Shown: positions 1,483 through 53,127 of the stretch, one piece after another
Numbering within the stretch: position 1 is the stretch's first letter
Layout of the letters: every line of letters starts with the position of its first letter
The notes under the pieces: generated by a model
What the model saw: the letters and a program-made list of their open reading frames with translations, nothing else
Databases searched by the model: none
What the model was told of the DNA's origin: nothing
Source of the DNA: Alopecurus myosuroides
Lineage: Eukaryota > Streptophyta > Magnoliopsida > Poales > Poaceae
Direction: 5' to 3'
Assembly: GCA_028641055.1 (NCBI GenBank)
Contig: CM054058.1
Location: 235,083,551 to 235,147,550, forward strand
DNA length: 64,000 bases
Translations under genes and position numbers: made by a program

Positions 1483-1500
1483 GCAAGTCCCCGAAGCTGG
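1483..1500 (-). other. Tat-1 polypurine tract region
   Basis: On the minus strand the bases directly before the 3' LTR read CTTCGGGGACTTGC. This G-rich tract abuts the LTR start and is the position where plus-strand priming occurs in LTR elements. Confidence 0.7.
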
Positions 1501-5306: not shown

Positions 5307-5309
5307 CTA
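5307..5309 (-). other. In-frame amber codon between PR and RT of Tat-1
   Basis: CTA on the plus strand is TAG on the minus strand. It separates the protease end from GAA-AGC-GCG-CTC of the RT leader. The frame is the same on both sides. Tat-2 has TAG at the aligned site (19922-19924), which argues for a programmed stop, although decay of a CAG codon is possible. Confidence 0.85.
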
Positions 5310-9626: not shown

Positions 9627-9631
9627 CCATG
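9627..9631. repeat. Target-site duplication of Tat-1, right copy
   Basis: CCATG, identical to 580-584. Confidence 0.93.
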
Positions 9632-26090: not shown

Positions 26091-26105
26091 CTCTTGTAGG
26101 GAAGT

Positions 26106-27405: not shown

Positions 27406-27453
27406 GATCATGGTGTTGTAGGAGATGCAATTCCTCCCATCGTCATAAGAAGA

Positions 27454-30290: not shown

Positions 30291-32043
30291 ATGGATGCGG
30301 GTATGTAGCTCTCTCTCTCATCTAGTTGATGGATGGGGAAACACTAGGAGCCACATGTTCTTCACATCTAGATGCGTGGATTTAGGTTTTGGAGTAGGAA
30401 ATCACAAGTACGAACCCTAGAAACCTAGACTGTGAGTATTAGGCTTGAATCACTTTGGTTCTTAGAGTGGATTTGTCATGTGCCCTACCCCTTGTTATTC
30501 ATACCTAATGTTCTTCATATCTTTGTTTCTCGGATTTGTGCATCATATAAACTTGAGCATTACCTCTTCTTCATGCTTTTCTTGCTATATCTCTTTCATA
30601 GATGCGTCCGGTTCCAAGGGCAAGGGCACTCGCACCAAGAGCGTGGCTAGTCGCAAGGCTCCAAGACTTGATGAAATCGAGGAAACATTGGACCCATCTC
30701 AGCCCAAGCGCAAGACGAGATTCCCGGATCCCGAGAAGACTTTGCCTCGCAAGGAGAAATCGGCCTCTCAAGTTTCCGAGGGAGTGTTCTTGGCGACTCG
30801 TCGCGAGAACCCATATAATGTTGAATGCAACCGCTTGATGCCACAGTTCCGGGGTAAGGATCCATGATTCCACACCGTGTTTCAAAGCCAAATTTATCAT
30901 GAGATTTTGATGAGGAAGTCCAAGCAGAATGTTGCTCCTCAACATGCCATCAATTTTGGTCTTATGGAGAGGAAGCCCGAGTACTTTGGAGAAGCACTAG
31001 AGATTGTTGATGCATTTGGCCTTGCTCCCATTATGCAAGTACATCAAGATTATAATGAGGGATTGTTTTGTGAGTTCTTGGCCACAGTGCACCTAGCCAA
31101 TGAAACAGAGTGTCATCTTATCTGGATGACCAAGAGACAGAAGCTCACTATCAAGAGATCCGAGGTTGGAGTCCTTCTTGGCGGCTACCCGGATCATGGA
31201 TCCTTTGCTGGTGACCCGAAGTTTGACAAGGGTTGGTTCCGTGTTCATGCTCCCAATGCTCAATCACTCACCAAGGATCAACTCACTCCTCTTTATCACT
31301 GGAAGAAGTTCGATGTTGGATTTGTCAAGGGCCTCTATCCCACTTATGATATTATGCTTCACATCTATCAAGAGACCATCAACCCAAAGGCGGGGAACAT
31401 TGATTAGATCCAAGGCTTCCTCAAGAACCTCATGCTTCTTACTCATGAGAAGCGGCTTTCCGGTCTAACTCAGAATCTTGATGTGCTCGATTATCTCTGG
31501 AACAAGTTGTGGCATGTGATTATACAAAGGAAGAATGCTTCCTTTGGGCCTTTCATAATGAAGATCATCTTGAATGTGTGGGAGAACAAGTTCCCAGAAG
31601 ATCCTCTTGATGATGCTAATTGGATCCCACATATGGAGAAAAGGCTTCTCATCAAGGACCACACCGAGCCTATTGTGCATCCCACTCCCACTGCTCACAA
31701 AGGCAAGGCCAAGCCACGGGTCATCATTGATGAGGAAGACGAACAAGAGGAAGTTGGTCCCTCTCCTCCTCCTCCTTCTGACAGCGACTTCAAGTGGATG
31801 GCAAGGGCTCTCAAGAAAGTGTTACGAGTGAACAAGAAGGTCGAGCAACACCAATGGGAACTTCACTATGACAAGGATCTTAAGCACCGCAAGGCAGCAA
31901 AGGCCGAGAGACGGCTTCGTCGTGATGGTGGAGAATCTGTGGAGTCCCCGAGGGAAGATAGCATTACTGACTGGGACGCATGGAAAGCCAAGGATTCCAA
32001 AGGGAAGATCATCGAGTGGTCTGACGAGGAACCTGGAGAATAG
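30291..32043 (+). pseudogene. SIRE-A accessory gene (unknown function), two exons
   Basis: Exon 1 is only 10 nt (30291-30300, ATG GAT GCG G). A GT-AG intron (30301-30601) follows, then exon 2 (30602-32043). The protein starts with a basic, NLS-like region (PKRKTR). Its globular middle, with LMERKPEYFGEALEIVDAFG and GFVKGLYPTYDIMLHIYQET, aligns with the accessory protein of SIRE-B. It ends in a Lys/Arg-rich helix and an acidic tail (EWSDEEPGE). I do not recognise a characterised domain; grass databases contain many relatives annotated only as transposon proteins. Stops at 30865-30867 and 31405-31407 break this copy. The split after ATG-GAT-nnn-G, followed by GTATGT, is shared with SIRE-B. Confidence 0.75.
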
Positions 32044-32483
32044 GTCACCAGCTCTCGCCGCCGCGCCCGCCCTCCGAGCTTGGATAACTCCCCTGAGTTA
32101 TCATTGGGATGTTAGCATCGGTCTCCTCCCTCTTTTGGTATCTTGATGCCAAAGGGGGAGAGATATCTACTTAGGAGCGGGAATTTGCATGGGTTCTCTC
32201 TCAAGCCGTGTTTTTTGATTTGCCTCTTACGTCTTGCTTGAGAGAGTTGGCTATTTGGAAACATTGTTTAAATTATTGTGCGTTGTGAACCTCGTTATGC
32301 ATTATGTGAGCTTGTGAACTTAGTACCTTAATTTTATCACATGTTATGTGCTCACTATTATATGTGTTTAGCTATCCATATTGTTTTAATTCTCTCAACA
32401 TGAAGGGAGCATATCTCTAGGGGAGCTCCGTCCATGTTGTGTGTGTTACAGTTATGCAAATAGGGATGTTGTCATCAATTACC

Positions 32484-32497
32484 AAAAAGGGGGAGAA
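32484..32497 (+). other. SIRE-A polypurine tract
   Basis: AAAAAGGGGGAGAA directly before the LTR start TGAAAG. The same tract precedes the 3' LTR of SIRE-B. Confidence 0.9.
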
Positions 32498-33870
32498 TGA
32501 AAGATCATCTTCCGTTTTGATAATTGATGACAACATAACTATAGGACTAATGTCTATTTGAGAGTACTTGCAGGTATTATTTGATATATATGAAAATTCC
32601 CAGGTTCATCAAGTATACAATCTTATTGGGTTACAAAAATATTTCGAATGGAAAGAGCTCGAAGAAACAAAGCTGGAGTGCCATTTTTGCAAGCAACGAA
32701 GGCTGAAACCACCGGAACCTCCGCCCCATGCATTTCCCCAGCTCTTCCAAGTGCTGGCCTCTGGTGGTGGATCCGGTGTAGCCTCCGCGAAAAACACCTT
32801 CGGGTGCAGAAGAGCGGAGGCTGCAGTGGAGCCTCCGGTGAACAACCGGTGGGCGGAGCCTCCGGTGACACCACCGGAGTCTCCGTTGGCTCCACTGCCC
32901 CATTGTGGGGCTAACCTCCAGTGGCGCTTCCGGTGTGGCCTCCGCCAAAACCACCTTCAGGTGCATACAGCAGAGCCTCCGGTGAACCTCCGGTGGGCGG
33001 AACCTCCGCCAACGCCACCAGAGCCTCCGCCCTGAAGAATCCAGAATGGAGCAAACGAGCCGCGCGCATGCGCGCAAGTGAAGACCACCGGAGCCTCCGG
33101 TGGAAACGCCGGAGCCTCCGGTGGTGCGTGGACTGCTCAACAGCCACATTGGGTGAGGGGTATTTAAAGCCCTTCCCCTACCTCATAAATGCCAAGCTTT
33201 TCCCATTCTCTCTCCTAGCCATTAATGAAAGCTTCAACCTCCTAGATTTCCCTCTCCAACCACCCAAACACTCCGAAACTTTGTGGAGAGCTAGAGGAGA
33301 CCTAGATCCGTGATTCCACCAAAGGAATTTCAAATCCATCCACCACATCCTAGTAGATCTAGAATCATACTTGAGGCTTAGAAACCTTAGTAGATCTTGT
33401 GCTTGTAGCTTCCACCTTGTTGCAAGAAGCTTCGGATTCGTTGAGAGCCTCCATCCATCTTGTGGAGTGTCCTCAAATTCGTGTAAAGGTTTGGTCAACA
33501 CCTTCAAGTCGACCTCATAGTGGAAACGAGAATCTCCCTCACCGGAGAAGCCCAAGGAGAATAAGGTGTGCACAACCATGCTATAGAGGAGTGCCTAGGT
33601 GGCTCCCCACCTCTCCAACGTAGACGTACTTCTCTTGAGAAGGGACTACGGGAAACATATCCTTGTCTCCTTGTTTACACTTGTGGTTTATCTTGTTGTC
33701 TTTTGTTTTACTTCCGTTGCGTATCTTATCTTGTATCACTTAGGTTGCTCACCTAGTTGCACATATAGAGAACCTTATCTTATCTTGCTTAGCCCTAATT
33801 AAAAGGAAAAGAAGAAAAATTGGTAGTCAACCTATTCACCCCCCCTCCAGTTGACCATAATGCACTTTCA
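32498..33870 (+). repeat. SIRE-A 3' LTR
   Basis: 1,373 bp with TGAAAG...CTTTCA inverted termini. U3 contains palindromes of the type CCGGAGCCTCCGG (for example 33088-33100 and 33109-33121) and CTCCGGTG-4 bp-CACCGGAG (32860-32879). A TATA box (TATTTAA) lies at 33161-33167. Sequence downstream of the TATA box closely matches the SIRE-B LTR; U3 does not. Confidence 0.9.
33161..33167 (+). promoter_or_regulatory. TATA box of the SIRE-A LTR
   Basis: TATTTAA follows the palindrome-rich U3 and a GGTGAGGGG run. No 5' LTR is left for this copy, so this box now points out of the element to the right. Confidence 0.65.
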
Positions 33871-35240: not shown

Positions 35241-35299
35241 CCGGAGAGGAATTTCCCCGACAGATTCTCCCTGCTAGAGAGCTTTTCTCTCTCGGGTGT

Positions 35300-36695
35300 T
35301 GAAAGTACACAAATGTCAACTAGAGGGGGGGATGAATAGGTGACCTACAAATTTTAATCCTTTTTCAATTTTAGTGAGGGCTTTGGAAAGATAATAACTT
35401 TGTTATCTAGATGTGCAACTAAGTAGACACGCTATGTGACAAATAACGAGTAGCAATGGAAGTAAAAGCAAGGCACAAGATAACAACAAGTGAAAAACAC
35501 GTAGACAAGGATATGTTTCCCGTAGTTTTTTCTTGAAAGAAGTACGTCTACGTTGGAGAGGTGGGGAGCCACCTAGGCGCTCCTCAATAGCACGGATGTG
35601 CACACCTTGTTCTCCTTGAGCTTCTCCGGTGAGGGAGATTCTCGTTTCCACTATGAGGTCGACTTGAAGGCGTTGACCAAACCTTTACAAGTGGTTGAGG
35701 CTACTCCACAAGTGAGATGGAGGCTCTCAACAATCCGAAGCTTCTTGCTACAAGGTGGAAGCTACAAGCACTAGGGTTTCCCTTGGATGACAAAGCAACC
35801 AAGAGATTACAAGATCCCAAGAGGTATGGTGTGGGAATACAATTTTTGGCTTGGTAGAAAGGTAGATCTAGTCCTCCTCCATGAGATGCTTAAAGGGCAT
35901 CGAGTTTGGTTGGAGGAGGAGGTAGATCGGGGCGTTTTGAGCTCTTGAAAAATGGAGGAGAGAGAGGAATGGACGAGCTGCCTATCTAGAGGAAGAAGAC
36001 AACTATTTATAGGCCCCTCCAAATTCTGACCGTTGTAGTGTGCTAGGGCCGGAATATTCCGGCGTTAGCACCGAAAATTTCCGGTCTAACCTGGCCGGAA
36101 ATTTGAATAGTCTGGGGGGCGGATTTTTGAATCTTCCGGGGGCGGAAATTTCCGCCCAACATTCCGCCCCCATCTCTGCGCGCGGGCACCAGCACCGCGC
36201 TGAATATCGCTAAGGACCAGGACCGGACTTTTGAATAATCCGGGGGCGGATATTTGAAACTTCTGGGCCCGGAAATTTCCGGACAATAATCCGCCCCCGT
36301 CTCTGTCCGCGGGCATCTGAGAAAACTCCAATTTCTGCTAAGTACCAGAGGGCCGGATATTTGCACCGGAAATTTCCGGGGCAAATTTCCGCCCTAGCTT
36401 CTGTGCGCGGGCAGTGGGAGAAAGACTTAGCCGTTTTGATGTTGCCAGAAAGGCTGGAATATTCCGGTGCTTGGGCCGGATATTCCGCCCCATAAGCACC
36501 GGAATTTCCGGTGTAAATTACTGAAAAATCCGGGGGAAGTAACTCCAGAATACAGAACTCCTCTTTGAACTTTTTATAAGAATATATCAATAATCACCTG
36601 AGAGAACAGCTGCACAGACTTAAACAACATTGTTAGAGAGTAGATACCCGCGCTGTTATGATCACCAAAATCATTAGAGGGATCCTGAGCTTTCA
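35300..36695 (-). repeat. SIRE-B 3' LTR (left copy)
   Basis: Matches 51295-52690 with the same length. U3 (about 36040-36540) is packed with CCGGAATATTCCGG and CCGGAAATTTCCGG-type palindromes and three copies of a CTCTGYGCGCGGGCA-like word. TATA (minus strand TATAAATA) is at 36004-36011. Confidence 0.92.
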
Positions 36696-36713
36696 ATCTC
36701 CCCCTTTTTGGTG
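36696..36713 (-). other. SIRE-B polypurine tract
   Basis: The minus strand reads CACCAAAAAGGGGGAGAT before TGAAAG, the same form as in SIRE-A. Confidence 0.9.
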
Positions 36714-36993
36714 AGTGATGACAACCCGGGTATTTGCAAGGGAATAAACTAACAATGCAAGCGATGGAAAGTAAAACACCATAGATAGCATATATAGGAG
36801 ACATGCCTCCTAATAATAATAGTTCACACAAGCAAATTCACGAATAACGAAGTTCGAAAAGACGAAACGATAAAAGGCGAGGAAGAACGAAACCCCACCC
36901 TAGAAAATCCCCGCAAACATCTAAATCTTCTCCCCCTTTGGCATCAGGATACCAAAAAGAGAAAAGAGAGCAGTACGTCCCATGGAGCAAACT

Positions 36994-38839
36994 CTAGGCC
37001 TGGGTGTCATCATCTGTTTCTTCTTCTTCCTCCTTGCTAGCCGTCGCAATGTCCTCATCATCATCCACTCCGAGATCCCAGTCAACGTCACGGTTGTTCC
37101 AGTTCTTGTATGGAATCCTGGGAGGAGGAGGAGCTGGCACATCTGGAATGTTGAGAGCAGTCATGATGGTGCGTTGGTTCTCCAGGATGTGGCGGTGCTC
37201 GACATAGGTGTTGTAGTTCTCCTTGTGGATGCACACATTCATGCACATCACCTTCTCAATGGCACGAGCAAGCCACGAGCGCTTTCTTTTTGCCGAGAGG
37301 AGGTGGGCGCATGCGAGAATCATGGTGACCCTGACCCGTGGCGCCAACATCATGAGCAGCCTGCTGAGTGTGGGCGGCATTCTTGTACATCATGACATCC
37401 TTGTGCTCATCACAGTCTAAGTCGAGGTCCTCACGGAGTTCAACATGGTAGCGAGACTTGATGAGCTTCATGACGTAAGGAGCATAAGGAGGCACTTTGC
37501 GGTTGAAGAGAGCAAAATGGATCTCGTTGAAGATGAAGTCCATCACATCAATCTTATGGTGCTCAGCATCAGTCATGTCACCCTCAGTGAAGGTCAGGAA
37601 GGAGTGGTACATGAGGTTAACCAGGCCTCCACGAATGGCATCATTATTGCCCGCGCTCGGGGCAATAGTCTCTCTGAACATATGCAGCAGGATGTCATAG
37701 ATGGGGTAGAGAACTTTTGCAGAACCAATCACACCAGTAGACCCATACAGCTCAGCCAACCTGTTCTTCTCATACTCCACCCCATGAACGTGCATGCGAT
37801 GGCCCTGAGGAGTGTGAAGACCAGCAAACGGATAACCGAGCTCGGCAGCAAAGTCATGGAAGTTGGCAGTGAGCAAGTGAGGGCCAGACATCCAGGACAT
37901 CCCAATATCCTCAGACTCATCAAACACCAGAGTGGAGTAGAACTGCTGGATGAAGGTGGCGTTGTAGGAGCATTTGGTCTCCATGAGATGACGCAGCCCC
38001 ATAAGTTCAGCCAGCTGGACAGAGTTGTTGAAGTATGCAGGATTGGCAGCCAAGTGTGCAAAGTTGATGGCTTTCATGGGACCGACTGGTTTGCTCATCA
38101 CAGTGTACACCTGTTTGAAGAGCGTCTCCTGCTCGACGTTCCAGAAGCATGGGTCGATGGTGGGGTCTTGAGGACCCTCAGTGTACCAGGCTTTGCCCCT
38201 CCATGCCTTGAATTCAGGAATAGACATGGTGGCCAGGTTGAGAGCTGACTTCCGTTGCTGCTTATGTGCCTTGCGAGCTTCCCTGGAAGCGTCACGTTGA
38301 CACTCATATTCTTTCTCAGCATCCCTCGCACGCCGGCGAGTTTCCGCCTCATCAACCAGTGTGCCCTCAGCATCTTCCCTCAAGTGTCGGAGCCTCTTGC
38401 ATGATCTAGTCAGCTTGGAAGGCCTAGAGCTTGAACCATCCGCGAGGAAGGCCAGGAAAAAACGCAAAGAGAGAACAAACAAAAATGAATCAAAACGGGG
38501 GCTCACAACTCGTAGAAGTGGAATAACAGATCTCAGTTAGAGATTCAGGGCAGGCCGGAAATTCCGGTATCTGGTGCGGAAATTCCGGGGGGGGGGGGGC
38601 GGAAATTCCGGTCCTGGGGCGGAAATTTCCGGCCTTCGGAATTTTCGAAACAAATCTGAATCTGTGGCCTGCAATAAATCTAAAACTACGATGAAGTGCA
38701 ATGGGAGGAACCCTAGAGGATAGATTATACTAGTATGTGGATGTTCCTCTCAAAAACACATGGAATATCAAAGGACATGAGATCAAATCAACCAATAACC
38801 CTAGATTGCAGAGAAAACGAAGCACATACCGGGATCCAT
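36994..38839 (-). pseudogene. SIRE-B accessory gene (unknown function), two exons
   Basis: Exon 1 is 38830-38839 (ATG GAT CCC G) and is followed by GTATGT. Exon 2 starts at about 38439 with GGTTCAAGC in frame. The expected acceptor at 38440-38441 reads GG instead of AG. Exon 2 begins basic (KLTRSCKRLRHLRED), has a charged helix and then a globular region with FWNVEQETLFKQVYTVMSKP and KVLYPIYDILLHMFRETIAP, homologous to the SIRE-A protein. A frameshift near 37300 leads into the C-terminal frame, which ends in an acidic tail (VDWDLGVDDDED and a Glu run). Its own TATA box lies at 39005-39011. Function unknown; not an obvious membrane protein. Confidence 0.75.
38554..38640 (-). repeat. Palindrome cluster in the intron of the SIRE-B accessory gene
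   Basis: Four CCGGAAATTCCGG-like blocks and a 14-base G run lie inside the intron. The same motif family occurs in the LTR and upstream of the internal TATA box. Confidence 0.8.
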
Positions 38840-39004
38840 GAGGGAGAAAGGGATTTGCGGTCTCTTGATCCGCAAAGGGCAATCAGAAGATGAAGAGGGG
38901 AGGCAAGAGGGCCTCCCGGTGGTCTCGGAGGCGGCGGCTGCGTCTGGAGGCGAAGAGGAGGCGAAGGGAGGGAGAGCAGTCTGGAACTGCCCCTCCCGTC
39001 GCCC

Positions 39005-39011
39005 TTATATA
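39005..39011 (-). promoter_or_regulatory. Internal TATA box of SIRE-B
   Basis: The minus strand reads CTATATAAGG, about 165 bp before the ATG at 38839. It is flanked on its upstream side by the palindrome array at 39015-39350, which supports an internal promoter for the accessory gene. Confidence 0.75.
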
Positions 39012-39014
39012 GCC

Positions 39015-39350
39015 CCCAGCCAGACGGACCGGATTATTCCGGCATTAAGGCCGGAATATCCGGGGGGCGGAGATTTGGGCCGGAATATTCCCCCAAATAT
39101 CCGGTGTGCCTTCTGCGAGCGGGCACGCTGGATATTTTGGGGAAGATTCTGGTTAATCTCGAACCCCGGAAATTTCCGGGTCTTAAGGACCGGAATATTC
39201 CGGGCCCCCGGATATTTGCTCCGGAAATTTCCGCCCAAATTTCCGGGGTGCCTTCTGTGAGCGGGCACCTTGGAAATGGGTGAAAATTTCTGAGGCAAAT
39301 GTCTGGAGGCCGGAATTTTCCGGGCCCTAGGCCGGAATTTCCGGGGTTCC
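39015..39350 (-). promoter_or_regulatory. SIRE-B internal promoter array of CCGGAA...TTCCGG palindromes
   Basis: Perfect copies include CCGGAAATTTCCGG (39166-39179) and CCGGAATATTCCGG (39190-39203), with several near copies. Two CTTCTGYGAGCGGGCAC words also match words in the U3 of the SIRE-B LTR. It is thus built from the same modules as the LTR promoter. Confidence 0.8.
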
Positions 39351-39715
39351 CATGCCTTCTGAGAATTTTGGTGGAAAATAAAACAAGAAGTGAGCCTCCA
39401 AAAACACGAACCAACGACGACGAACACACAAACACGAACAAAAACACAAAGAAAGCAAATACAAAGAGAAATGTTGGTGGCCGAAGCCACCGTGTTTGAG
39501 TGATACCAAGGAGTCGCGAAGATATATCTTGGACCCAAAAGTATGACTCACGTTTAGGCACAATAAGTCACACAATGACTAGATATGCATGACGCTTTGG
39601 TTGTTTTGCGCATGATACGTGGAGTGTTGGTTCATGAGTTGAACTACGCTCCGTCTATGTCCATGCCTACATCTAAACTTGATAGTACATATAATGAAGG
39701 TAGGTATGCAAGGGT

Positions 39716-41836
39716 TCAAGAGAAGTTGGGCGCATCGATAACATTTAGTTCATTCCTCAAACCCCTAAATCTTGGTTCATCAAGGGCCTTCGTGAAGATA
39801 TCTGCAAGTTGATCCTTGGTTGGCACATAGGAGAGGTCAATATCACCCTTCTCAACATGATCCCGAATGAAATGATGGTGTATCTCAATGTGTTTCGTCT
39901 TGGAGTGAAGAACGGGATTGTAGGCGATCTTGATGGCACTCTCATTGTCGCACAAGAGAGGAACTTTGTCAAAGTCGATGCCATAATCTCTCAATGTTTG
40001 CCGCATCCAAAGTAACTGAGCACAACAACTCGCCGCGGAGATGTATTCGGCTTCGGTGGTAGAGAGAGCAATGCAATTTTTCTTCTTGGAAGACCAACAT
40101 ACCAATGAGCGGCCAAGAAATTGACAACCTCCGGATGTAGATTTCCTATCCGTCTTCTCTCCCGCATAGTCCGCATCCGAATACCCAATGAGCTGAAAGC
40201 TTGAACCCTTGGGATACCAAAGACCGAAGTTTGGGGTATGAATTAAATATCGAAAGATGCGCTTAACCGCTTCAAAATGACTTTGTCTCGGAGAGGCTTG
40301 AAACCTTGCACATTTACCTAAGCTATACATAATATCGGGTCTAGATGCACAAAGGTAGAGCAAAGAGCCAATCATGGAACGGTATACCTTTTGATCTACC
40401 TCTTTACCATTCGGGTCGGGTTTCAAGTAAATAGTCGTGGACATGGGAGTCTTCATAGGTTTGGCATCATGCATGTTGAAGCGCTTGAGCATGTCTTGAG
40501 TATACTTGGCTTGCTTGATGAATGTGCCTTCGGGATGTTGCTTCATCTCAAAGCCAAGAAAATACTCTAACTCTCCCATCATAGACATCTCGAATTTATC
40601 CGTCATAAGCTTGCAAAACTCATCATTGAATGCGATGTTAGTAGAACCAAAGATGATATCATCCACATAGAGTTGGCATATGAACAAGTCACCTCCAACC
40701 CTTTTGGTGAAAAGGGTGGGATCGATTAAACCGACATTGAACCCACGATGTACTAAAAACTCTTTAAGGTGCTCGTACCACGCAAGTGGAGCTTGTTTAA
40801 GTCCATAGAGTGCTTTATCGAGTTTGTAGACGTGATCGGGGTGGTTGGGATCCTCGAAACCCGGAGGCTGCTTGACATAGACCAACTCGTGGATGGGACC
40901 ATTCAAAAATGCACTTTTAACATCCATTTGTTGCAATTTAAAGTTGTGATGAGAGGCATATGCAAGTAAGATGCGAATAGATTCAAGACGAGCTACGGGA
41001 GCGAATGTTTCACCGAAATCGACACATTCGACTTGAGAGAAGCCTTGAGCAACCAATCTAGCCTGGTTGCGAATGACGATGCCGTCCTTGTCTTGCTTGT
41101 TCTTGAAGATCCACTTGGTGCCGATGACGTTCTTGCAATCTTTGGGTCTTGGCACCAACTTCCACACCTTGTTACGCTCGAAGTTGTTGAGTTCTTCGTG
41201 CATAGCTTCAATCCAATCTTGATCTTCAAGAGCTTCATAGACCTTCTTTGGCTCAATGTGAGAGACGAAAGCATGAGCCTTGCTAAAACCCGCTAATTGC
41301 CTTCTTGTGATGACCCTTCCACGAACTTGTCCAAGAATCATTTCCTCCGTGTGACCGGCACGAGCAAGATTATCTAGCCTTCTCTTTGCCCTACAAGCTA
41401 GCATCTCCTCCAAAGTTTCCTTGGATAGCACTTGATCATCACCTTCATCATCGGAGCCTTGTCCACCTTGATTTTGTTCATCAACGGGAGGTGGATCCCT
41501 CATGTGTCAAGTTGTATCATCACCATGTGTATCTTGTTCTTGTCCTTCATTGTGAGCTTGGCCTTCATCATGAGCTTGGCCTTGATTGTTAGCTTGGCCT
41601 TGTGGTAAAACATGAGGGCTTGGTGCATCTTGTTGGGTAGCTTGAGTATCAATGGATGTAGTCAATGGCTCCACTTGAGTAGAGCATAGTCCTTCTCCCT
41701 CCGTCATCCGGTAACCCTCAATGGGGATTATTTCACCAATCCCCATTCTTCTTATGACGATGGGAGGAATTGCATCTCCTACAATTCCATGATCTATACG
41801 GCCCCCTTGGGACCCATTATCCTCATCAAACACCAC
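39716..41836 (-). pseudogene. SIRE-B reverse transcriptase and RNase H
   Basis: This runs from the linker (QGGRIDHGIVGDAIPP) through RT with NVIGTKWIFKNKQ, DVKSAFLNGPIHELVYV and YVDDIIFGST to RNase H with GYSDADYAG, SSKKKNCIALS and SKTKHIEIHHHF, ending at 39716. One TGA at 41507-41509 interrupts an otherwise complete 700-codon stretch. RNase H is intact, unlike in SIRE-A. RT plus RNase H converts element RNA to DNA. The link to integrase is broken by the Helitron at 41925. Confidence 0.9.
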
Positions 41837-41989
41837 GTCTATAGCTTCTTCAACTTGCCCGATGGACTTGTTGTAGACTCTATAGGCGTGAGCGTTCGTG
41901 GCATAACCAACAAAGACACCCTCATTAACCTAAGGCTTTAAGCCGGGAGACGAGCGACGATTCTCAGGCCATACACGCGTCGGGCTGCA

Positions 41990-43600
41990 GTTGCGTCGTG
42001 ACCTCGCTGGCCCCTCTAGGTTACCTCGCGTGCGTGGCACGGCTGGTGGGCGGTGGCAGTCCCGTCTCTCTCTTTCTCCCACTCTTCTATACCTGCATCT
42101 CTCATCCTCCTTGCGCTGGCCACGGTGGCGGCGGCGGAACTTCCGGCGGCGCAGGTGATGGGGAACGGCGAGTGGAGCCTAGGGCGTCATCCCCTCTCTA
42201 TCCCCTCTCTGCTTTGTCGCGGATCTCTCTCCCCTCTCCCCTAGCGGCGGCGGCGGTGGGGAATCCGGCGGCGCTGGTGACGGGGAACGACGAGGGAAGG
42301 CTAGGGCATCCCCCCTCCCCCTGGTCTCTTCCCTCTCTCCTTGGCCGCGCCTCTCTCTTCCCCTGGTCCCCCCCTCCCTTCTCAGTGGCTTTACTCCCCT
42401 TTCTTTACCATTGGTGGCGAGAACGGCGGCCGCTGGCAGCGTGGAACAACGAGAAGGTGGCGGCGGGGAACGTCGAGCAGAGCCATGTCCCTTTGTCTCT
42501 GGGGACTCCTCTCTCTCTCTGTGCTATGGATGCGAGATGCCCCCTCTCCTTTGTCTGCAAAAAATGTGTTCTTTGAATCGGATAAACAAGACGTCGGCTC
42601 GCACCAGAGGCATGTAAGCAATATTTCTCCTTCAATCGTTCATCTAGCTCTCCTTCAAGTAGATAGTATATGTGTTGCTCTTATCCTAGGCCAAATGAAT
42701 TAAATGCAGTTTTTGCTATCAGGTCACGGAGTGCTTTACCAGCTTGAGTGGTATAATATGTTTGTACCTGAATGATCATTCAATACTTATTTGCGGTTGT
42801 TGCTAGATATTTCAGCTGTTGTTTTGCCAACTTAACTGCAAGTCTGAAGTTCAAAAAGAAAAAAAAACCTTAGGTACTGCAAAGTGTGTAGTTGTCTTAC
42901 TGAATAAATTCGTTTGCAAACATGTCCTTGGAATTTATGTACCAGGTTCAATTCGTTTTCTGGCGCAAACAGTAGGTAGATTTTGGTTCAATTGTCTGCT
43001 GCTGTTTTGCTGTAACGCAGTTCAGTTTTCCGGCCGTATTGCTCAGTATTGTTGTTTTGCTGAACTTGCAATTCATATTCAGTACATAGTCTGTTTTGTT
43101 GAACTCAATGTCCATCTATTATGCTAAGCCTGTGGCAACCAGTAGCAAGCAGATCACTGCTGGTATCGAGGGGTCCGAGGGTGATCAGAGCTCGGACGGA
43201 AGGTGAAGAAGGGAGCATTGGAGGTCCGACGTATTCCACAGCAAGGACACTGAATTTGACGTGCCTTGGGTTAGCTAAACAAGGGCAACACATAGTGGTA
43301 CACCTACCCGCCGCCGCCGTGAGAACCTCCTGCCGCCACCCCGCACGAGCCTAGCCGGCGCCGCTGTGAGAGCCTCCTGCCGCCTCCCCGCACAAACCTG
43401 CCCCTTGGGCCTGGCCTCCGTTGTCGCCCTGCACGCGAGCCCACCTGTGGTGCACCCACCTGTCCCAACGAGAGTCATCCCTGCTACCCCGCCTGCCCGC
43501 TTCTGGCCACCAGCGATCGCCCCGTGTCATGCTACCCCGCTGTTTAGACTATTGATTTGGTTTGGTCCATCATCTCTAGATGATTTTTAGATGCCCTGCG
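41990..43600. other. GC-rich, gene-fragment-like cargo of the Helitron
   Basis: Two GC-rich blocks (about 42000-42600 and 43120-43540) with CGG/GGC runs and longer open frames stand out from the AT-rich remainder. This is the look of captured 5' exon or UTR sequence, as grass Helitrons often carry, but I recognise no protein and assign no source gene. Confidence 0.4.
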
Positions 43601-46600
43601 GATCAGCCATTTGACACGAAGGAGGCAAGAACAAACAATAACACTCTAGGCTTCGTTGATAGGCTGCAGCGCCATCAAAAAATCGATTAATCTTCTTCGA
43701 TAGCTAGCCTCAACCTATTTCTCTAAACCTACAACTTAAATACAATTGGCTATCTTTTAATTTAAATGATGGATGTTCTTCTAATTTTGCATTCAGGGTG
43801 AATTCCTTCTTGGCATTGCGTGGAGGTTAAATTTCAGTCCTTTGTTTCCTGTGCTTGGTGCTTGCTGCTAGCACCATGAGTATGCATGTTATGCTCGTAG
43901 ACTTGTAGGTATAATTAACTTCATCCTAGCTAACGACTATCCTTGTGTATTTATCCTATATAGAAACTAAATTCTTTGTGTTGCCCTGTTTACGTTTCAC
44001 TTATATGCTAACAATCTACAATGCTGCTAATTTGGAACTAAAATCTTAGCTATAGTTGCAGCTGTCTGTTTCACTATTATCTTAATATGTTTTCAAATGT
44101 TTAATTGCAGTCTCCATTTAGGGATTGTTTGTTTTACACTTGGAAACCATGCGATTCCTAGAATTAAAACGACTTTGTGTGAACGATGATTATTTTACAA
44201 TCAGTTACACAAACTTGTAACTGAATTCTTCATTCTGAAGGAGATCTGTGTTAGCTAGAACTGTTCTGTGCCAGCAATATAGTAGTCCATGTGATATACA
44301 GTACTTTCTTATAAATGATACCTTTTTCAGAGCAGCTCATATGTTAGTCTCCGGTGTTAAAATTTGATAGCTTACACGTTTGGAATGTGATGTCTATCTT
44401 CTCATTTCTTATCCAGTAATCCAATCTTATTTTTCTTGTTGTGATCATACCGTATTTGGGTGTCTTCAGACTAATCGCTTAAATTGGTGTTTCTTTGTGC
44501 AACATAATGCTTTTAATACAAGCGAATGGAGAGTTGTAGGAAGGTTTTGTATATGGTAAGGAGTCAGAGAAGATTGTGTTGTTGAACGGAGAAACAACAA
44601 TTTAAATTCACAATGTGTTGATATATCTTAGTACTGGACCACCGTCTCTCATATTTGAAATTATTGATGATGCCTAGATGACAGTGGAAAGGTGTACGAG
44701 GATGCATCATTAACAATAAATAGGTAAACGAAATCTTCAATTTTGTTTGTTTGCATCGTATATATGACAATTGGACATAATATGTGCAGGTCTGACTTAG
44801 TTTTTCGTAGAGGACATGGGCATCCTCTTCATAATACCCAAGGACACAACTGCCAACTTGACAAAGATTATTCATTGGCTTGGTTTAGAAGGTAAGAGAA
44901 AAGATATATTGTGGAGAATAAGTGAGGAGAACCTTCTGTAGAATAGTTTTATTTTACCAGGTTTGTGCACATATACATGTTTTTGCACAACTTTTATACT
45001 ACTATTTATTACACACACAACCTTTTTTCAAATCCAGAAAAAAAAATTGTGAGCATGCTTCTATGTTAGTGTGTAAGCTATGTACTTACTATTCATCACC
45101 GCGAGATTGGTACTATTGACCTTGCCATTTTATATCAAAATGGGTACTGCTATTAGGTTGTTAACGAAAGGTTGATGTATCAGGAATGTGTATCAATTTG
45201 AATGGAAAATTTACTATATTGATATAACAATTAATCTAGATAAGTTTATATGAGTCGATAAAACTTGCATGTGCACGTGCACCATTACTATATTTGCAAA
45301 TCAGCTTGTTGGTAGCAGGATTCAGTTGCAATTAATGTCCAAGGAATCATATTATGTTCTCTGTTTTTAACATGTTTTATGGTTTTCTTACGAATACAGT
45401 GTTCCCCCCAATAGTTGTAAAGCCATATTTGCAAATCAGCTTGTTGGTAGCAGGATTCAGTTGCAATTAATGTCCAAGGAATCATATTATCTTCTCTGTT
45501 TTTAACATGTTTTATGGTTTTCTTACGAATACAGTGTTCCCCCCAGTAGTTGTAAAGCCATGCAAAATAGCATATTAATATGTCTATCTGTCTGTCATAT
45601 AGCATAAGGAACTCTCAAAAGAATTAATGAAGTCTAATTTTTTTTCCTTTCCACTTGCAGTTTAACTAGCCTTAGTTTTTGCACAGATTACTTTCATTTT
45701 CTCCTCGGTACGCGTCCATGTGGGAGGGGAACATAGAAGGGAATGGCCCACGACGATGCCATCCTTCCCCACACAGAGCGCAATGCAGGGTAAGGAAGCA
45801 ACAGAAGGGAAATAGCAGGGATCTGATAGCTGCAGTCATCGTGATCACCCCATTCCTGAATTTTGTGTGTGTTTTTTGGGTAATTTCTATTTATGGGAAA
45901 GGGGTTTTCCTATGATACTAAGAGTTTAAAGTTGTGGATTTGACCATTGAATCAGATATTCTCTTTTTATCTTTCATTGGACACGTAGTTGAATTTTTTG
46001 TTATGGACCTACTAGGATCATGGCCTTTGTTCCCACACACCTGATATCAGTTATAGGTGCTTCTACCCTTGGCTTTCCATACAGGACTCTGCATAATAAC
46101 TAACATGGGTGCAAGTAAGACAATATTAACTGTAGTTTTGTACTTTTGTTTTACTTTGTAACTTAGATACTACAAGTGTCTTCCCTATGTTATTAGTTGA
46201 CCCACCTAGAGCACATAAGGAAATATTGGACCCTGCATTTAATCCCGAACCGAAGATAACAGTCGCTATAGCTTATGGATCATTGGTTTCACATTCATGT
46301 ACTTATGATTTGCTCGATACTACCCACTGTATAATTATCTGGGTCCTACCAAGGGTTTAAGTATGGAATGCAAACCATCACATCTTGGTGTGTGAAATCA
46401 AAACTTATAATCAAACTTGGAACTGTTTTTAAGTTTGGTATTTTTTCAGGATACTCTGTATTATTGGATGAATCAGTTGGAGTTAGAAAGGTAACCTGTT
46501 TAACTTATTTTTTTGTGCCCCTAGAATTTATTCGTTATTGTTGTATTTTTCTTCATTTTATTTTCTCAAATAAACGCTCTCTGATATCTCAACCCCATGA

Positions 46601-48420
46601 AAACTATCATTTTTAAACTTACAAGAATGTAAGCCGCCATTATTGATTTACAATTTGCATCCAAACTTCTGAAGTTTCTTACCACGTGATCTATGGGACA
46701 TAAGAGATGTATGGTTTACAGGTCACACATGAGGTGGCCAAATGATCAAGGATCTAGAGAAATATTGAGAGAGAAAACTATGAATGGGGGAACTGTAAAC
46801 TCTATCAGGAGATTCTATAGTGTAACCATTCTTGAACATACGACACATATTTTTAGTGTTTTTCCTTGCTATATATATACTTTCCTGGCCATTTTCACAT
46901 TAGTGGGCAATAGTTCAAAAACTTGCATATTATTTTAGTAGCGGTCTTCATTTGAAGGAATTACGTTGTTTGTGCAGGGAAGAAGCACATATCCTGGTGC
47001 AGCCCCCATTGTACATTGACTTGAAAATTACAAACCACACGTCGTCATCAATTCTCGGGTTGCTGATGTTGTACTTTTTTCAGCACCTATGGTATGCCTT
47101 CCATGGCTTTTCAAATGGTTACCAATATTTTCATAACATAAATTCATTGTTTCAACATATGAGTTCTGGAATATTTAGTAAGTCATGGTATGAGGACATG
47201 GACCTTAAGATTCATTTCACGTGGCTTTAGTTATGTTTTTCTTCTCTTGAACGCTTAAAATATGTAATCTGAAAATGATATTTTCATGTCATAACTATTT
47301 AGTTAACGTTCTGTCCATCTGCCTTCGAATATGAAGGTTTACCAATTGGGTTCTAATCGGAACGAAGGAGTTGGCACACGGGACATTAGCTAGCCATATT
47401 TTTGAATGTGGTTGTCAACTTACCGGAAGATATTTCACGCACCCCATACATCTCTTGTTCTTTGAAAAGCAATAAACGTGTATTTTTACTTCATGCATGA
47501 TTCATGTTACCTTTATGTTCTACTTCTGGTATTGTAAAGAACAGGACATGCATATCGGGATATTTCTTTGGAGCGGCTTCTAGAATTATCTATTCTATGT
47601 GCTGAAGTTAGTTATAAAGGAAGATGTTTGTGTTGGGAGGCGGAGGTCTTCTGAGCTATAGCACCTGTGCAGAGCAGCTTCTATATGAAGTTAGGGATCC
47701 TACAAACTGCATAATTCCTGATCTGGAGAGGTCATATGACATATCCATTATATGTAGTTTCTTGTCTCAATATTGGTCATATTTAAGAGCAAATTGTAGA
47801 TTTCAGCTATGTGCAGTTCCATCAAATATCAATGTAAAGGAGCAAAACTATCAATCCCTTGTCGGCCTGAGAAACCCCTCGAATTGTTTCCTAATGGATG
47901 TTTTCCTTGGTAACAACAGAAATTGTACTAAATTCAAGTTTTCCTTCAGTGTTCTTCGGAGTAAAAGTATTTAGTACCTAGCATTAGTGTTTCGTATAGT
48001 TGGGTATTTAGTGTTTACCCTGTTCCATGCTATCTTACTGGTACTGTAAAAAATTACTATGTAAATGTTTTAATGTGTCGGCTGGCTATATTGTTGCCTA
48101 ATCAAACATTTTTCGAGTAATTTTCCTAACGCTTGTGTTTCTCAAATAGAATCTGATAGAATCGAACGGTAGTCTTCTTGATTTGAAGAAAGGTCCTTCA
48201 ATTATAGTCCATTCAGATATTTTTCGTCAAGAGGCTCATATTCAGCTCAGAACATGTTGACAAAACTCCATGCAGACAACATTAAAGCTCCACGAAAATA
48301 ACTGTCCTACTAAGCGCCACGTAAAAAGACCATCTGATAACGACTGACAGCATGTTATGATCAACACAGAACGCCGAAGCACACATTGCTCTGACTATGG
48401 TATCAGAGACAATAGATAGA
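43600..48420. other. AT-rich interior of the Helitron, no gene recognised
   Basis: There is no frame with recognisable domains. It has an intron-like base composition with scattered short frames. A 135-bp tandem duplication lies at 45291-45560. Nothing else can be supported. Confidence 0.5.
45291..45560. repeat. 135-bp tandem duplication in the Helitron
   Basis: Two adjacent copies starting TATTTGCAAATCAGCTTGTT (45291 and 45426) differ by only a few bases over 135 bp, so the duplication is recent. Confidence 0.92.
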
Positions 48421-48450
48421 CGGCGCGGCAAAGCGCGCTACTCCGTCTAG
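48416..48450 (+). other. Helitron 3' terminus: hairpin and CTAG
   Basis: GCGCG/CGCGC arms with a short loop lie about 12 bp before the terminal CTAG. An outer pair (TAGACGG and CCGTCTA) frames them. This matches the known Helitron 3' structure. Confidence 0.8.
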
Positions 48451-49401
48451 TAAGATTTAGTCTAGAACTTTGACAAGCGTTTTCCTCTCTTGCGAATGAA
48501 GCACTTGCATCCAAAGACCTTGAAGTATGATACATCCGGCTTCTTGCCCGTGAGAATCTCATAAGGGGTCTTGTTCAAGATCTTGCGGAGATACAATCGG
48601 TTGCTAGCGTGACAAGCGGTGGAGACGGCCTCGGCCCAAAAATTATAAGGAGAAGAGAACTCCGCAATCATGGTTCGAGCCGCATCCATAAGAGTCCGAT
48701 TCTTTCTCTCCGCCACACCATTTTGTTGAGGGGTGTAGGGAGTGGAATATTGATGAGCAATTTCTTCCTCGCTAAGAAATCCCTCCACGGTGTAGTTCTT
48801 GAACTCAGAGCCTTTATCACTTCGGATAGCCATGATGCTTGTATTATGTTGGCGCTCCACCAAAGTGATGAACTCGATGACCCGCTTTTGAGTCTCACTC
48901 TTCCTCTTGAAGAAGTACACCCAACAATATCGTGAATAGTCATCCACAATCACCAAGCAATACTTCTTGCCTCCAAGACTATCATATGATAGAGGACCAA
49001 AGAGGTCCAAGTGAATGAGCTCGAGGATTCTTGAGCCCTAGGTGGTGATGTTTGTCTTGGTTGGGTGAGCTTCTCCATGTTGTTTTCCAAGAACGCAAGA
49101 GCTACACACACGATCTTTGGCAAACTTAGCATTTGTTAGTCCTAGAACATGATTGCCACTTTGTAGGTCATGCAAAATCCTCATATTGGTATGGGCTAAC
49201 CGGCGATGCCATAGCCAACCCACGTCAACTTTAGCCATTAGGCATGTCGCAGCACACGTGTCTCCTTTAGAGAAGTACACTACATACATGCCGTTCTCGA
49301 CATGCCCAACAAAGGCTACTTTAAGAGTCGTTTCCCAAGTGACAATCACATTCTCTTTATTAAAGAACGAGGTAAAACCACTTTTAGCAAGTTGAAGAAC
49401 C
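48451..49401 (-). pseudogene. SIRE-B integrase region
   Basis: The minus strand has the pre-integrase HHCC (WHRRLAHTNMRILHD and CSSCVLGKQHG), then the core with MDLFGPLSYDSLGGKKYC, AIRSDKGSEFKN and NGVAERKNRTL. In the second catalytic motif Asn of DNG is Lys (SDKGSEF); the Asp itself is kept. Stops lie at 49036-49038 and 49399-49401. The sequence stops at RLSKF because the Helitron inserted there, and the continuation is at 41924 and leftward. Confidence 0.88.
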
Positions 49402-51242
49402 TATATGAGATTATAGCCAAGGGACTCAACAAGAAGAACATTCTCAATTGACAAGTCATTTGAGATTTCTACCTTGCCTCGTCCCAATACCTTTAGTTCG
49501 GAGTTATCACCAATAGTGACGCAATTGAGATGAGGTAATGGAGGAAGTAGATCACTCATTGCGTCATTGCTTCCGGTCATATGTTGGGATGCACCACTAT
49601 CCACCGTCCATTTGCTCGAACCAGAAGCACTCCCCGAAGTGGCTTTTGCCATAAGACATGTAGGTCGGGTAGCCACAATCTCATCGGGGGATTCAAATAG
49701 AGAAATCGATGAAGATGACGCGGTGGCAACGACGACGTGGGCCACTCCCACAACTTCATCTTCTCCTTCATCTCCGGAGATATAGGTTTCTAGAACCGCC
49801 CCTTCTTGAACGTAGAGAGCCCTTGGCACTCTTCTAGCGAAGTTCTTGTTTTGTGGAGCCTTGACCTTGTTTTTGCGAACAAGCTTGCCTTCATTTTCTT
49901 CTCTTGGCTCAAAGGGGCACTCCTTCACGAAATGGTTTGCGCTACCACAGTTGTAACATGTCCTTAGGCGCTCCCCCTTCTTCTTGTAGCTCTTGTTTCG
50001 TGGAGGTCTTGGAGAGCCGGCCTTGTGAGCTTCCCATCTCTTCCAATATCCATGCATAGCGAGAGCAATGCACTTGTGAGCTCCCGTATAGGTGTCTTCA
50101 TAGTCTTCTTCATCATCATATTCTTCTTCACTTTCATCAACTCGAGCCATTGCCTTTGACTTCAATGCGAGGTTGGGAGACTTTCCCATCCCTCTAGAGC
50201 GAGCTAGAGCATCATCCGCACTCTTGTGTGATAGAGAGATGGCGATGAACTCACTAAGAACACCAATGGAGTTGAGAGTGTTGTAGTCCGCTCTTGTCCG
50301 AATACTAGTGGAGAGATTCTTCTCAAAGGGTGTGATGGCCTTGACAAATTTCCTCTTTATCCACTCATCAGAGATCTCTTCCTTTCCAAAGTCTCTCAAT
50401 TGGTTGGCGACAGTGACAACTCTTCTATAGAGCTCTTCGGGAGTCTCATACTCTTGCATGACGAAGTTCTCGGAGTTGTCAATGGCCACATCATACTTGG
50501 AAGATTGAATGCTAGCATTTCCTTGAAACAAGGTGTCAAGTTTGTCCCAAGCTTCCTTGGCGGTCTTGCAACCACGAATGTGAGTGAGATGCTCCCTTGG
50601 GAGAGCCTTCTGGATAATAATGAGAGCAGTTTTGTTGAGTTGAGATTCCACATCCTCCCTTGGAGTCAAGTTGCTCGGGTCATGCGGATGAAATCCATCA
50701 ATCACACTCCTCCACAATGCGGTGCACGGTCCAGAAATATGGGACTCCATTTCAAACTTTTAAGAAGAGAATTAGTTAGTGTTAAGCATGGGAGGAAGTC
50801 CAACATTAAGAATGTGTGGCATGGAAACAATTGGGTGAATGGTGTCATAATTTTGAGGAGGTGGGACTTGTGCGTGGACCCCGGAACCATTAGTCGTTTG
50901 AGACTTGGAGCCACCAGAACTCTCCTTTGCGTTGGCTTTAGCCTTTTGTGTGGCTTTAGCCTTAGCTTTGGCAATGTTCTCCTCGATTTGGGAATCGTCA
51001 GGAATCGTCTCCTCTTCCGAACTATCCTCATCGGTGACATGGGGAGAGTTCGATGGCCCCTTAGGTTTACCCATCATGTTCTCCAACATCTTCTTGATGG
51101 AGGAAACCTCCGAACCTACACTAGAGCTAACCTTGGACAATTGGGTTTGGATAGTACAAATCGTTGTCTCTAGGTTAGCTATAGTGTCGGCCATTTTGGA
51201 GAGCTCCTCCTTAGAATATTTGGGATCATCTCCGTTGACCAT
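49402..51242 (-). pseudogene. SIRE-B gag and protease active site
   Basis: The start MVNGDD lies at 51240-51242, 41 bp after the PBS. The N-terminal part has a short coiled coil (TIANLETTICTIQTQL) and a Lys/Ala-rich tail. Two TAA codons (50772-50774 and 50760-50762) interrupt it before FEMESHISG. Then follow the Copia gag core (SVIDGFHPHDPSN, ELYRRVVTVANQLRDFGKEE), an intact CCHC knuckle CYNCGSANHFVKEC and the protease site DSGASQHMTG. Relative to SIRE-A, about 1 kb of coiled-coil sequence between knuckle and protease is missing without loss of frame. Confidence 0.88.
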
Positions 51243-51282
51243 GATACTCTTAGGCGGTTAAGCCCGATAAAAGAGCCGAGGC

Positions 51283-51294
51283 TCTGATACCAAT
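51283..51294 (-). other. SIRE-B primer-binding site (initiator tRNA-Met)
   Basis: The minus strand after the 5' LTR reads ATTGGTATCAGAGCC, which contains TGGTATCAGAGC, the standard Copia PBS complementary to the initiator tRNA-Met 3' end. Confidence 0.95.
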
Positions 51295-52690
51295 TGAAAG
51301 TACACAAAGGTCAACTAGAGGGGTAGGTGAATAGGTGACCTACAAATTTTAATCCGTTTTCAATTTTAGTGAGGGATTTGGAAAGATAATAACTTTGTTA
51401 TCTAGATGTGCAACTAAGTAGACACTCTATGTGACAAATAACGAGTAGCAACGGAAGTAAAAGCAAGGCAAAAGATAACAACAAGTGAAAAACACGGAGA
51501 CAAGGATATGTTTCCCGTAGTTCCTTCTTGAAAGAAGTACGTCTACGTTGGAGAGGTGGGGAGCCACCTAGGCTCTCCTCAACAGCACGGATGTGCACAC
51601 CTTGTTCTCCTTGAGCTTCTCCGGTGAGGGAGATTCTCGTTTCCACTATGAGGCCGACTTAAAGGCATTGACCAAACCTTTACAAGTGGTTGAGGCTACT
51701 CCACAAGTGAGATGGAGGCTCTCAACAATCCTAAGCTTCTTGCTACAAGGTGGAAGCTACAAGCACTAGGGTTTCTCTTGGATGACAAAGCAACCAAGAG
51801 ATTACAAGATCCCAAGAGGTATGGTGTGGGAATACAATTTTTGGCTTGGTAGAAAGGTAGATCTAGTCCTCCTCCATGAGATCCTTAAAGGGCATCGCGT
51901 TTGGTTGGAGGAGGAGGGAGATCGGGGCGTTTTGAGCTCTTGAACAATGGAGGAGAGAGAGGAATGGACGAGCTGCCTATCTAGAGGAAGAAGACAGCTA
52001 TTTATAGGCTCCTCCAAATTCTGACCGTTGCAATGTGCCAGGGCCGGAATATTCCGGCGTTAGCACCGGAAATTTCCGGTCTAACCTGGCCGAAAATTTG
52101 AATAGTACGGGTGGCGGATTTTTGAATCTTCCGGGGGCGGAAATTTCCGCCCAACATTCCGCCCCCATCTCTGCGCGCGGGCACCAGCACCGCGCTAAAA
52201 ATCGCTAAGGACCAGGGCTAGATTTTTGAATAATCTGGGGGCGGATATTTGAAACTTCCGGGCCCAGAAATTTCCGGACAATAATCCGCCCCCCTCTCTG
52301 TCCGCGGGCATCTGAGAAAAATCCAATTTCTGCTAAGTACCAGAGGGCCGGATATTTGCACCAGAAATTTCCGGGGCAAATTTCCGCCCTAGCTTCTGTG
52401 CGCGGGCAGTGGGAGAAAGACTTAGCCGTTTTGATGTTGCCAGAAAGGCCGGAATATTCCGGTGCTTGGGCCGGATATTCCACCCCATAAGCACCGGAAT
52501 TCCTAGTGTAAATTACTGAAAAATCCGGGGGCAGTAACTCCAGAATACAGAACTCCTCTTTGAACTTTTTATAAGAATATATCACTAATCACCTGAGAGA
52601 ACAGATGCACAGACTTAAACAACATTGTTAGAGAGTAGATACCCGCGTTTTTATCATCACCAAAATCATTAGAGGGATCATGAGCTTTCA
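51295..52690 (-). repeat. SIRE-B 5' LTR (right copy)
   Basis: 1,396 bp, the same length as the other LTR. Palindromes include CCGGAATATTCCGG (52044-52057) and CCGGAAATTTCCGG (52066-52079). The TATA box (minus strand TATAAATA) is at 51999-52006. Confidence 0.92.
51999..52006 (-). promoter_or_regulatory. TATA box of the SIRE-B 5' LTR
   Basis: TATAAATA on the minus strand, about 40 bp downstream of the first palindrome of the U3 array. Element RNA would start about 30 bp further left. Confidence 0.8.
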
Positions 52691-53127
52691 AGTGTTTTCC
52701 GCCCTGAGGCGGCGGCAGTATAATTCTTCGATGATGGTCTGGGGCATAGGGTTCCATGGGCATCAAGTACGCGAAAGATCTCGACCAGAGGTGGGCCAGG
52801 ATGGCCACACCACCTCGTGGCGCGGTCAGGGGGCGCCACCTCATTGTGTGGGCCCCTGGTGGCCCCCTCTGGCTCCCGTTCTGGCTGGAGTCCTCCTATG
52901 AACTTCTAAGACACTTTCGGTGTCCCCCTTCTTCTTCTGATCTTCTGAAACATGGTATCTCGATGATGCTTTTTCAATCAGATTTCTAGTCCCAGTGTTT
53001 ATTCTCCAAAAATTGTGAAACATGCAAAATAAGATAAAATAACATAAGTAATGCATCATAACATGAAATATGTCGATGAATAATAGAAAATAACAATATA
53101 AAGTGGTTATGCAAAATGGACGTATCA

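Follow-up and report, generated by a model that had tools for sequence, protein, structure and literature searches.

The window analyzed here is a 64-kb stretch of the Alopecurus myosuroides genome (64,000 nucleotides; assembly GCA_028641055.1, contig CM054058.1, positions 235,083,551 to 235,147,550). It contains two related long terminal repeat (LTR) retrotransposons, SIRE-A and SIRE-B, which carry arrays of palindromic words at two places: in the U3 region of the LTR and at an internal promoter of an accessory gene located between pol and the 3' LTR. The two elements have opposite orientations, with SIRE-A on the plus strand (24206-33870) and SIRE-B on the minus strand. Pfam matches on pieces of both elements revealed copia-type gag, integrase (INT) and reverse transcriptase (RT) in the order gag-INT-RT with RVT_2. 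The Sirevirus purine tract AGGGGGAG, followed by AT and the TG of the 3' LTR, is exact in SIRE-B (36705-36694), and SIRE-A has AGGGGGAG, AA and TG at 32488-32499, with AA where SIRE-B has AT. By gene order, purine tract and palindromic CGG-CCG boxes at both sites, the two elements are Sireviruses (Ty1/copia), an abundant group of plant LTR retrotransposons. A repeat comparison within the window found no 5' LTR of SIRE-A.

The word CGGAAwwTTCCG occurs 13 times in the whole window: four times in the U3 of each of the two SIRE-B LTRs, four times in the SIRE-B internal promoter and once in the intron of the SIRE-B accessory gene. CGGAGsCTCCG is present in six copies, three in the U3 and three in the internal promoter of SIRE-A, and both words are absent from the rest of the window. 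The longer form CCGGAAwwTTCCGG is found nine times (three per B site, none outside), and a relaxed B palindrome 28 times, again with none outside. First-order Markov resampling of the same segment expects 0.00 copies of the longer form per segment and 0.01-0.03 of the relaxed form in B segments; at equal composition, the expectation for these two forms and the A form is 0.00-0.03 per segment. Looser forms also occur elsewhere, namely GGAAwwTTCC once outside the arrays (at 54720), CGGA-N0..6-TCCG in 2 of 35 cases and the half-site CCGGA/TCCGG in 78 of 151, and specificity therefore belongs to the palindrome and not to the half-site. The spacer between CGGA and TCCG is 3 bp at both A sites (6/6 and 4/4) and mostly 4 bp in B (U3 4/7, internal promoter 5/8). 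A second word (minus strand GCCCGCGCRCAGA) has eight copies with no more than one mismatch, three per SIRE-B LTR and two in the internal promoter; allowing two mismatches adds a single match at 21825, which lies inside a gypsy gag open reading frame (ORF). An earlier reading made from the sequence only had described palindromes upstream of both TATA boxes and in the intron of SIRE-B, a second word common to both B sites, another palindrome type at the same two sites of SIRE-A, and a general half-site with differing core and spacing. All of this holds, with the correction that the SIRE-A U3 also contains one word of a third lineage (C-type, at 32875).

Further copies were collected from the same genome (3.57 Gb) using the B protein, a piece of A and the homologue P0005 as queries, which gave 68 loci with 1.5-kb flanks. 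The genome searches scored the best 105 of 14436, 150 of 10850, 79 of 15308 and 102 of 14762 candidates, of which 8, 30, 30 and 5 loci were kept; as only the best-scoring candidates were retained, the loci are the closest copies and not a random sample. They include the two copies of the window itself, L001 and L009. The copy number of the accessory gene seems to be very large, judging from the 14,436 candidates listed in the first of these searches, 105 of them scored. The accessory proteins of the 68 loci form three lineages at 60% identity (A, 30 loci; B, 11; C, 27), and the words were defined from one reference copy per lineage, that of lineage C being CGGAGwCTCCG. The own-lineage word is present in both flanks, which comprise the internal promoter and U3, in 23/30 A, 11/11 B and 25/27 C loci; the U3 arrays of A sit near the end of the retrieved flank. 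Palindromes of a foreign lineage were found on one side only, in two of the 30 A loci (C-word), one of the 27 C loci (A-word) and none of the 11 B loci. A looser C half-word occurs downstream in 9/30 and upstream in 1/30 A loci, and downstream in 1/11 B loci. The share of 8-mers with CGG or CCG that is common to both flanks amounts to 0.16-0.27 for flanks of one lineage and 0.03-0.10 for flanks of different lineages. In each of the six zones, conservation is higher at word positions than at adjacent ones (p <0.05 in five zones, p = 0.074 in the A internal promoter).

The layout of SIRE-B recurs in L043, a lineage C copy with an array, a TATA box, a short exon and an intron with more words; a C-word lies at most 450 bp before the protein match in 26/27 C loci, where L043 has its intron. 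Four additional loci outside the lineage counts are C sub-lineages (67-77% identity to C), with C-words upstream in three and downstream in two; one of the sub-lineage copies, L075, has a single A-word upstream in place of the C-word. A fourth accessory lineage is represented by one copy (L071, 51% identity to P0006), whose upstream words are C-like but degenerate and whose presumed intron contains one clear palindrome. The LTR of this copy seems to be interrupted soon after the start, and L071 neither supports nor refutes the pairing of the two sites.

Among the 68 loci of this genome, the type of word goes with the lineage: both promoters share it, and another lineage has another one. The sequence-only reading had proposed that the motif changes in concert at both promoters, which is correct at the level of lineages, and had offered two causes, gene conversion or co-evolution with a trans-acting factor. 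Ongoing gene conversion is not supported: flanks taken from one copy agreed no better with each other than flanks taken from different copies within a lineage (p = 0.69, 0.25 and 0.30), a U3 being no closer to its own internal promoter than to those of its relatives. The coupling therefore belongs to the lineage and does not stem from recent conversion in single copies.

Comparison of SIRE-A and SIRE-B revealed that the two promoters belong to a larger region of deep divergence, the 3' cassette, which consists of the internal promoter, the accessory gene and U3. Over gag, INT and RT, 80-86% of the bases match; the match stops at the end of pol (29728/39445) and returns in the R/U5 part of the LTR, weakly from 33098 and strongly from 33396 in SIRE-A. 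The LTR sequence downstream of the TATA box had been regarded as conserved between both elements; this is firm from about 235 bp past the TATA box (33396/35774, 83%), whereas nearer to it only a relaxed alignment extends back to 33098/36073, at 73%. The RT is 85% identical between A and B, 69% between B and C and 68% between A and C (C copy L069; a second C copy, L070, gave 66-74% in pieces), while the accessory proteins share 30% (A-B), 40% (B-C) and 27% (A-C). Including P0032 from Lolium multiflorum (L), RT identities over 208 shared columns are 86.5% for A-B, 75.5% for B-L and 69% for A-L, and accessory identities 43-48% for B-L and about 30% for A-B. P0032 is a public gene model in which a Sirevirus-type RT is fused to an accessory protein, probably because a transposon was annotated as a single gene. 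In an RT tree built from the best 120 of 6684 proteins, 8 of which were dropped for lack of coverage (115 tips: 112 matches, A, B and P0032), A and B are sisters with a support of 0.968.

At fourfold-degenerate third positions, A and B have the same base in 60/85 cases in RT (0.71) and 65/87 in INT (0.75). In the accessory gene the agreement is 0.229 over 64 copy pairs (8 of the 30 A by 8 of the 11 B copies), with 0.289 expected by chance; the window's own pair gave 7/18. This synonymous saturation in the accessory gene but not in pol indicates that the A and B cassettes split before their pol genes. Between B and C, the agreement is similar in both genes (RT 42/106, 0.40; accessory gene 0.383), so that A holds the odd cassette. 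As the accessory divergence exceeds the A/B split in pol, replacement of the whole 3' cassette by recombination would explain the contrast in one step and is the probable cause of the A/B difference. Tree topology alone is no proof of this replacement, since A and B as sisters in the accessory tree (34 of 60 rows kept at a coverage of at least 80%) were not rejected by an approximately unbiased test over 168 columns (p = 0.319). For A and B, the notion of two promoters changing in step is accordingly qualified: each lineage has the same word at both sites, but replacement of the whole cassette suffices to account for the change.

The accessory gene of SIRE-A and SIRE-B is read as two coding exons, the first short and the second long, separated by an intron (Table 1); the SIRE-B copy has a frame shift between 37256 and 37389. 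A simple hydropathy scan detected a membrane-like segment in just one of the 22 accessory homologues of at least 380 amino acids. The model of the conserved domain is confident and globular, and its predicted fold appears similar to that of VANC21 over approximately 210 to 220 residues; Foldseek searches of the model against the PDB and BFVD, a library of viral structures, gave no significant match. Profile searches of the PDB and Pfam scans found no sequence link to VANC. No member of alignment A1 (27 proteins) matched the VANC domains DUF1985 and DUF287 at E-values up to 10, HMMER filters limiting the sensitivity. A genome search for DUF1985 is uninformative, because all 14 controls, like the own genome itself, gave no match to the domain. 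PF20167 (Transposase_32) is matched by 15 of the 27 aligned accessory proteins at E-values up to 10 (best 5.7e-6), and several homologues bear a precomputed PF20167 label; the ORF of the window reaches 18.7 bits, under the curated cut-off of 45 bits. No relatives of the accessory protein or its alignment were found in collections of viral and genome contigs, and searches of phage records, of viral contigs with the SIRE-B RT and of viral contigs with the purine-tract DNA pattern found none either.

Table 1. Features of SIRE-A and SIRE-B in the 64-kb window.
Feature	Position	Strand	Basis or remark
SIRE-B U3 palindrome array, 3' LTR	36049..36540	-	modules 36413-36350, 36315-36252, 36188-36125
SIRE-B U3 palindrome array, 5' LTR	52044..52530	-	word counts
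SIRE-B LTR TATA box TATAAATA	36004..36011	-	sequence
SIRE-B internal-promoter palindrome array	39015..39350	-	modules 39267-39204, 39125-39062
SIRE-B internal TATA box TATATAAG	39004..39011	-	sequence
Further palindromes in SIRE-B accessory intron	38540..38660	-	sequence
SIRE-A internal-promoter palindrome array	29928..30085	+	sequence
SIRE-A U3 palindrome array	32700..33121	+	sequence
SIRE-A LTR TATA-like TATTTAAA	33161..33168	+	sequence
SIRE-A 3' cassette (internal promoter, accessory gene, U3)	29729..33097	+	DNA match to SIRE-B limited to three short islands
SIRE-B 3' cassette, counterpart	36074..39444	-	DNA comparison to SIRE-A
SIRE-B accessory first coding exon (putative)	38830..38839	-	donor GTATGT next; same layout in SIRE-A and lineage C copy L043
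SIRE-B accessory second exon	37256..38437	-	open, 393 aa; expected acceptor non-canonical in this copy
SIRE-B conserved accessory domain, folded	37388..38242	-	285 aa, pLDDT 92.0
SIRE-B accessory C-terminal part	36994..37389	-	other frame; HKEN motif, acidic tail
SIRE-A accessory first coding exon (putative)	30291..30300	+	donor GTATGT next; acceptor AG 30600-30601
SIRE-A accessory second exon	30602..32043	+	stop codons inside, ending at 30867 and 31407
SIRE-B 5' LTR	51294..52691	-	96% identity to 35299-36696; Kimura two-parameter distance 0.042
SIRE-B 3' LTR (BLAST extent)	35299..36696	-	LTR proper: TG start at 36695, after purine tract and AT
SIRE-B reverse transcriptase ORF	39716..41506	-	RVT_2, E 7.4e-75; RT at 39719-41506
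SIRE-B integrase	48528-49568	-	Pfam match

The pol region of SIRE-B harbors a nested insert of about 6.5 kb (41926-48450), where SIRE-A is contiguous (at 27276); the insert holds a 135-bp tandem duplication (45290-45559). A Ty3/gypsy element on the minus strand (585-9629) is flanked by repeats (585-1485 and 8740-9629, 96% identity) and encodes a gag-containing ORF of 1201 amino acids and a pol ORF of 993 amino acids. The repeat pair 10625-11121/23002-23499 (95%) belongs to a second element similar to it. An Rfam scan of the window gave no match at gathering score.

The two-site arrangement and element-specific words have been known since 2010. In Sireviruses, Bousios et al. (2010, PMC2829016) described repeated palindromes upstream of the LTR TATA box and again upstream of the envelope-like gene (ENV), almost all of them built on a CGG-CCG core. 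Their Table 3 gives one consensus for each of 13 elements, of which the nine with ENV have the motif at both sites and the four without ENV in the LTR only. An internal promoter was favoured but not conclusively identified (PMC2829016). The palindromes described here are ordinary RM boxes of new sequence: they share with the published boxes the high copy number of CGG..CCG palindromes in U3 and upstream of ENV, a TATA box just downstream and the purine tract by the LTR (PMC2829016). They differ in the words themselves, CGGAAwwTTCCG, CGGAGsCTCCG and CGGAGwCTCCG, and in the clear internal TATA box of B and C, which is followed by a short first exon and by an intron that contains additional words. 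In the Tnt1 superfamily, whose related elements have similar genomes, only the LTR control regions are described as variable (PMC2829016), whereas in the SIRE elements U3 and the adjacent accessory gene differ together. New here are the probably exchangeable 3' cassette and a candidate reader of the palindromes; no proposal of an accessory-protein reader or of cassette exchange was found in the accessible text of PMC2829016.

The candidate is suggested by VANC21 of VANDAL21, a Mutator-like DNA transposon of Arabidopsis (Hosaka et al., 2017, PMC5735166; structure 9LNJ). VANC21, too, is encoded by a transposable element; its family-specific motifs are densely arrayed outside the coding sequence, in introns and upstream regions among other places, and the transposase is far less variable than VANC and its targets (PMC5735166), as pol is compared with the SIRE accessory gene and U3. 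The systems differ, however, in that the SIRE protein is encoded in a copia LTR element, that the VANDAL21 motif YAGTATTAY is non-palindromic, and that binding and hypomethylation have been demonstrated for VANC (PMC5735166), whereas for the SIRE protein they are predictions. The PF20167 similarity recalls the 3' aORF of sunflower Athila, which has partial similarity to this family and is predicted to be nuclear (PMC11728184); Athila, unlike the SIRE elements, belongs to Ty3/gypsy.

On balance, we lean slightly towards the view that the accessory protein reads these RM boxes in a VANC-like way and that the two promoters are thereby under one control. The palindromes would serve as lineage-specific binding sites in U3, in the promoter of the accessory gene and in its intron, and the protein bound there would activate or un-silence just those elements that carry its word, its own element included. 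Such a trans-acting role is plausible because the predicted fold appears to resemble that of VANC21, a DNA-binding anti-silencing protein; to this extent, the trans-acting factor suggested by the sequence-only reading is supported. Two observations weigh against a simple co-evolution of protein and word: the words of A and C differ in the middle base only, yet their accessory proteins are 27% identical, and those of B and C share 40% identity, yet their words are clearly different. The wider proposal, which we put forward tentatively and at a little less than even chances, is that the Sirevirus "envelope-like" gene encodes no envelope but a VANC-type sequence-specific self-activator or anti-silencing factor, which reads lineage-specific palindromes in both LTRs, its own promoter and its own intron, and that gene and sites form one 3' cassette exchangeable between Sirevirus lineages. 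The accessory gene and U3 are neighbours in the 3'-terminal part of the genomic RNA and would be moved together by the normal strand transfer in R combined with a template switch close to where pol ends. Probably, the strand transfer in R is intermolecular, a co-packaged RNA serves as template for U3 and the accessory gene, and synthesis switches back near the end of pol; U3 would then be copied into both LTRs. Cassette exchange would leave SIRE-A and SIRE-B with shared pol and R/U5 and very different cassettes.

Alternatively, the palindromes might bind a host transcription factor that co-regulates both promoters, with lineages following different factors and the accessory protein doing something else. 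RM boxes matched mainly stress-related plant motifs, different nuclear factors were suggested for small variants, and the boxes are kept in elements without ENV (PMC2829016); the similar words of A and C despite their very different proteins fit this explanation as well. However, the words of coexisting lineages are kept apart in one genome, which a shared host factor would not require, and the predicted accessory fold seems to point to a DNA-binding protein of transposable elements. We regard a host factor as rather unlikely. Less likely still is an origin by shared descent without any co-evolving reader, in which the internal promoter is a piece of U3 captured or duplicated by template switching in the ancestor of each lineage (or the reverse) and kept as a generic promoter. 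Local alignment revealed a 61-bp block common to U3 and internal promoter of B (score 70 against a shuffle maximum of 32) and one of 35 bp common to both A sites (55 against 27); three of four A-to-B alignments remained below the shuffle maximum, and the best equalled it (28 versus 28). The B module U3m1 is closer to the internal module INm1 than to other U3 modules in 1976 of 2000 bootstraps, so that past exchange between both sites is likely for this one module. Against shared descent, the words are conserved beyond the level of adjacent bases and also lie in the intron, downstream of the promoter, and the nine published elements with ENV pair both sites with nine words (PMC2829016).

Two further explanations are much weaker. 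The palindromes could act as secondary structure in RNA or DNA (hairpins, small-RNA precursors or targets of host silencing) and not as protein-binding sites. Maize small RNAs are in excess on Sirevirus palindrome clusters (PMC10760457), and part of the SIRE-B internal array (39161-39349) matches its own reverse complement at 76%, forming a long imperfect inverted repeat that could be extruded or yield a hairpin RNA. Spacers of 3-4 bp, however, should leave scant room for a loop, the spacing is almost fixed per lineage, and the arrays are placed upstream of TATA boxes like cis-elements, which makes this role improbable. That the accessory protein is a retroviral-type envelope merely expressed from the internal promoter is suggested by the historical name of the gene at this Sirevirus position (PMC2829016), but the near absence of membrane-like segments, the confident globular model and the lack of a significant match in the viral structure library make it highly improbable.

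In 2010, it was unproven and controversial what the ENV-like gene of plant retrotransposons does (PMC2829016), and a literature search without most subscription papers found neither a later answer nor a link of the Sirevirus gene to VANC. If the accessory protein is a self-recognizing DNA-binding activator, this would explain how the elements multiply despite silencing, how several lineages can live side by side without activating each other, and why divergence affects U3 and the accessory gene but not pol. The three pairs of protein and word (A, B and C) offer clean, testable predictions and could possibly supply sequence-specific tools for chromatin work in cereals. Should the VANC-type reading be true, anti-silencing encoded by transposable elements would be common to DNA transposons and retrotransposons.

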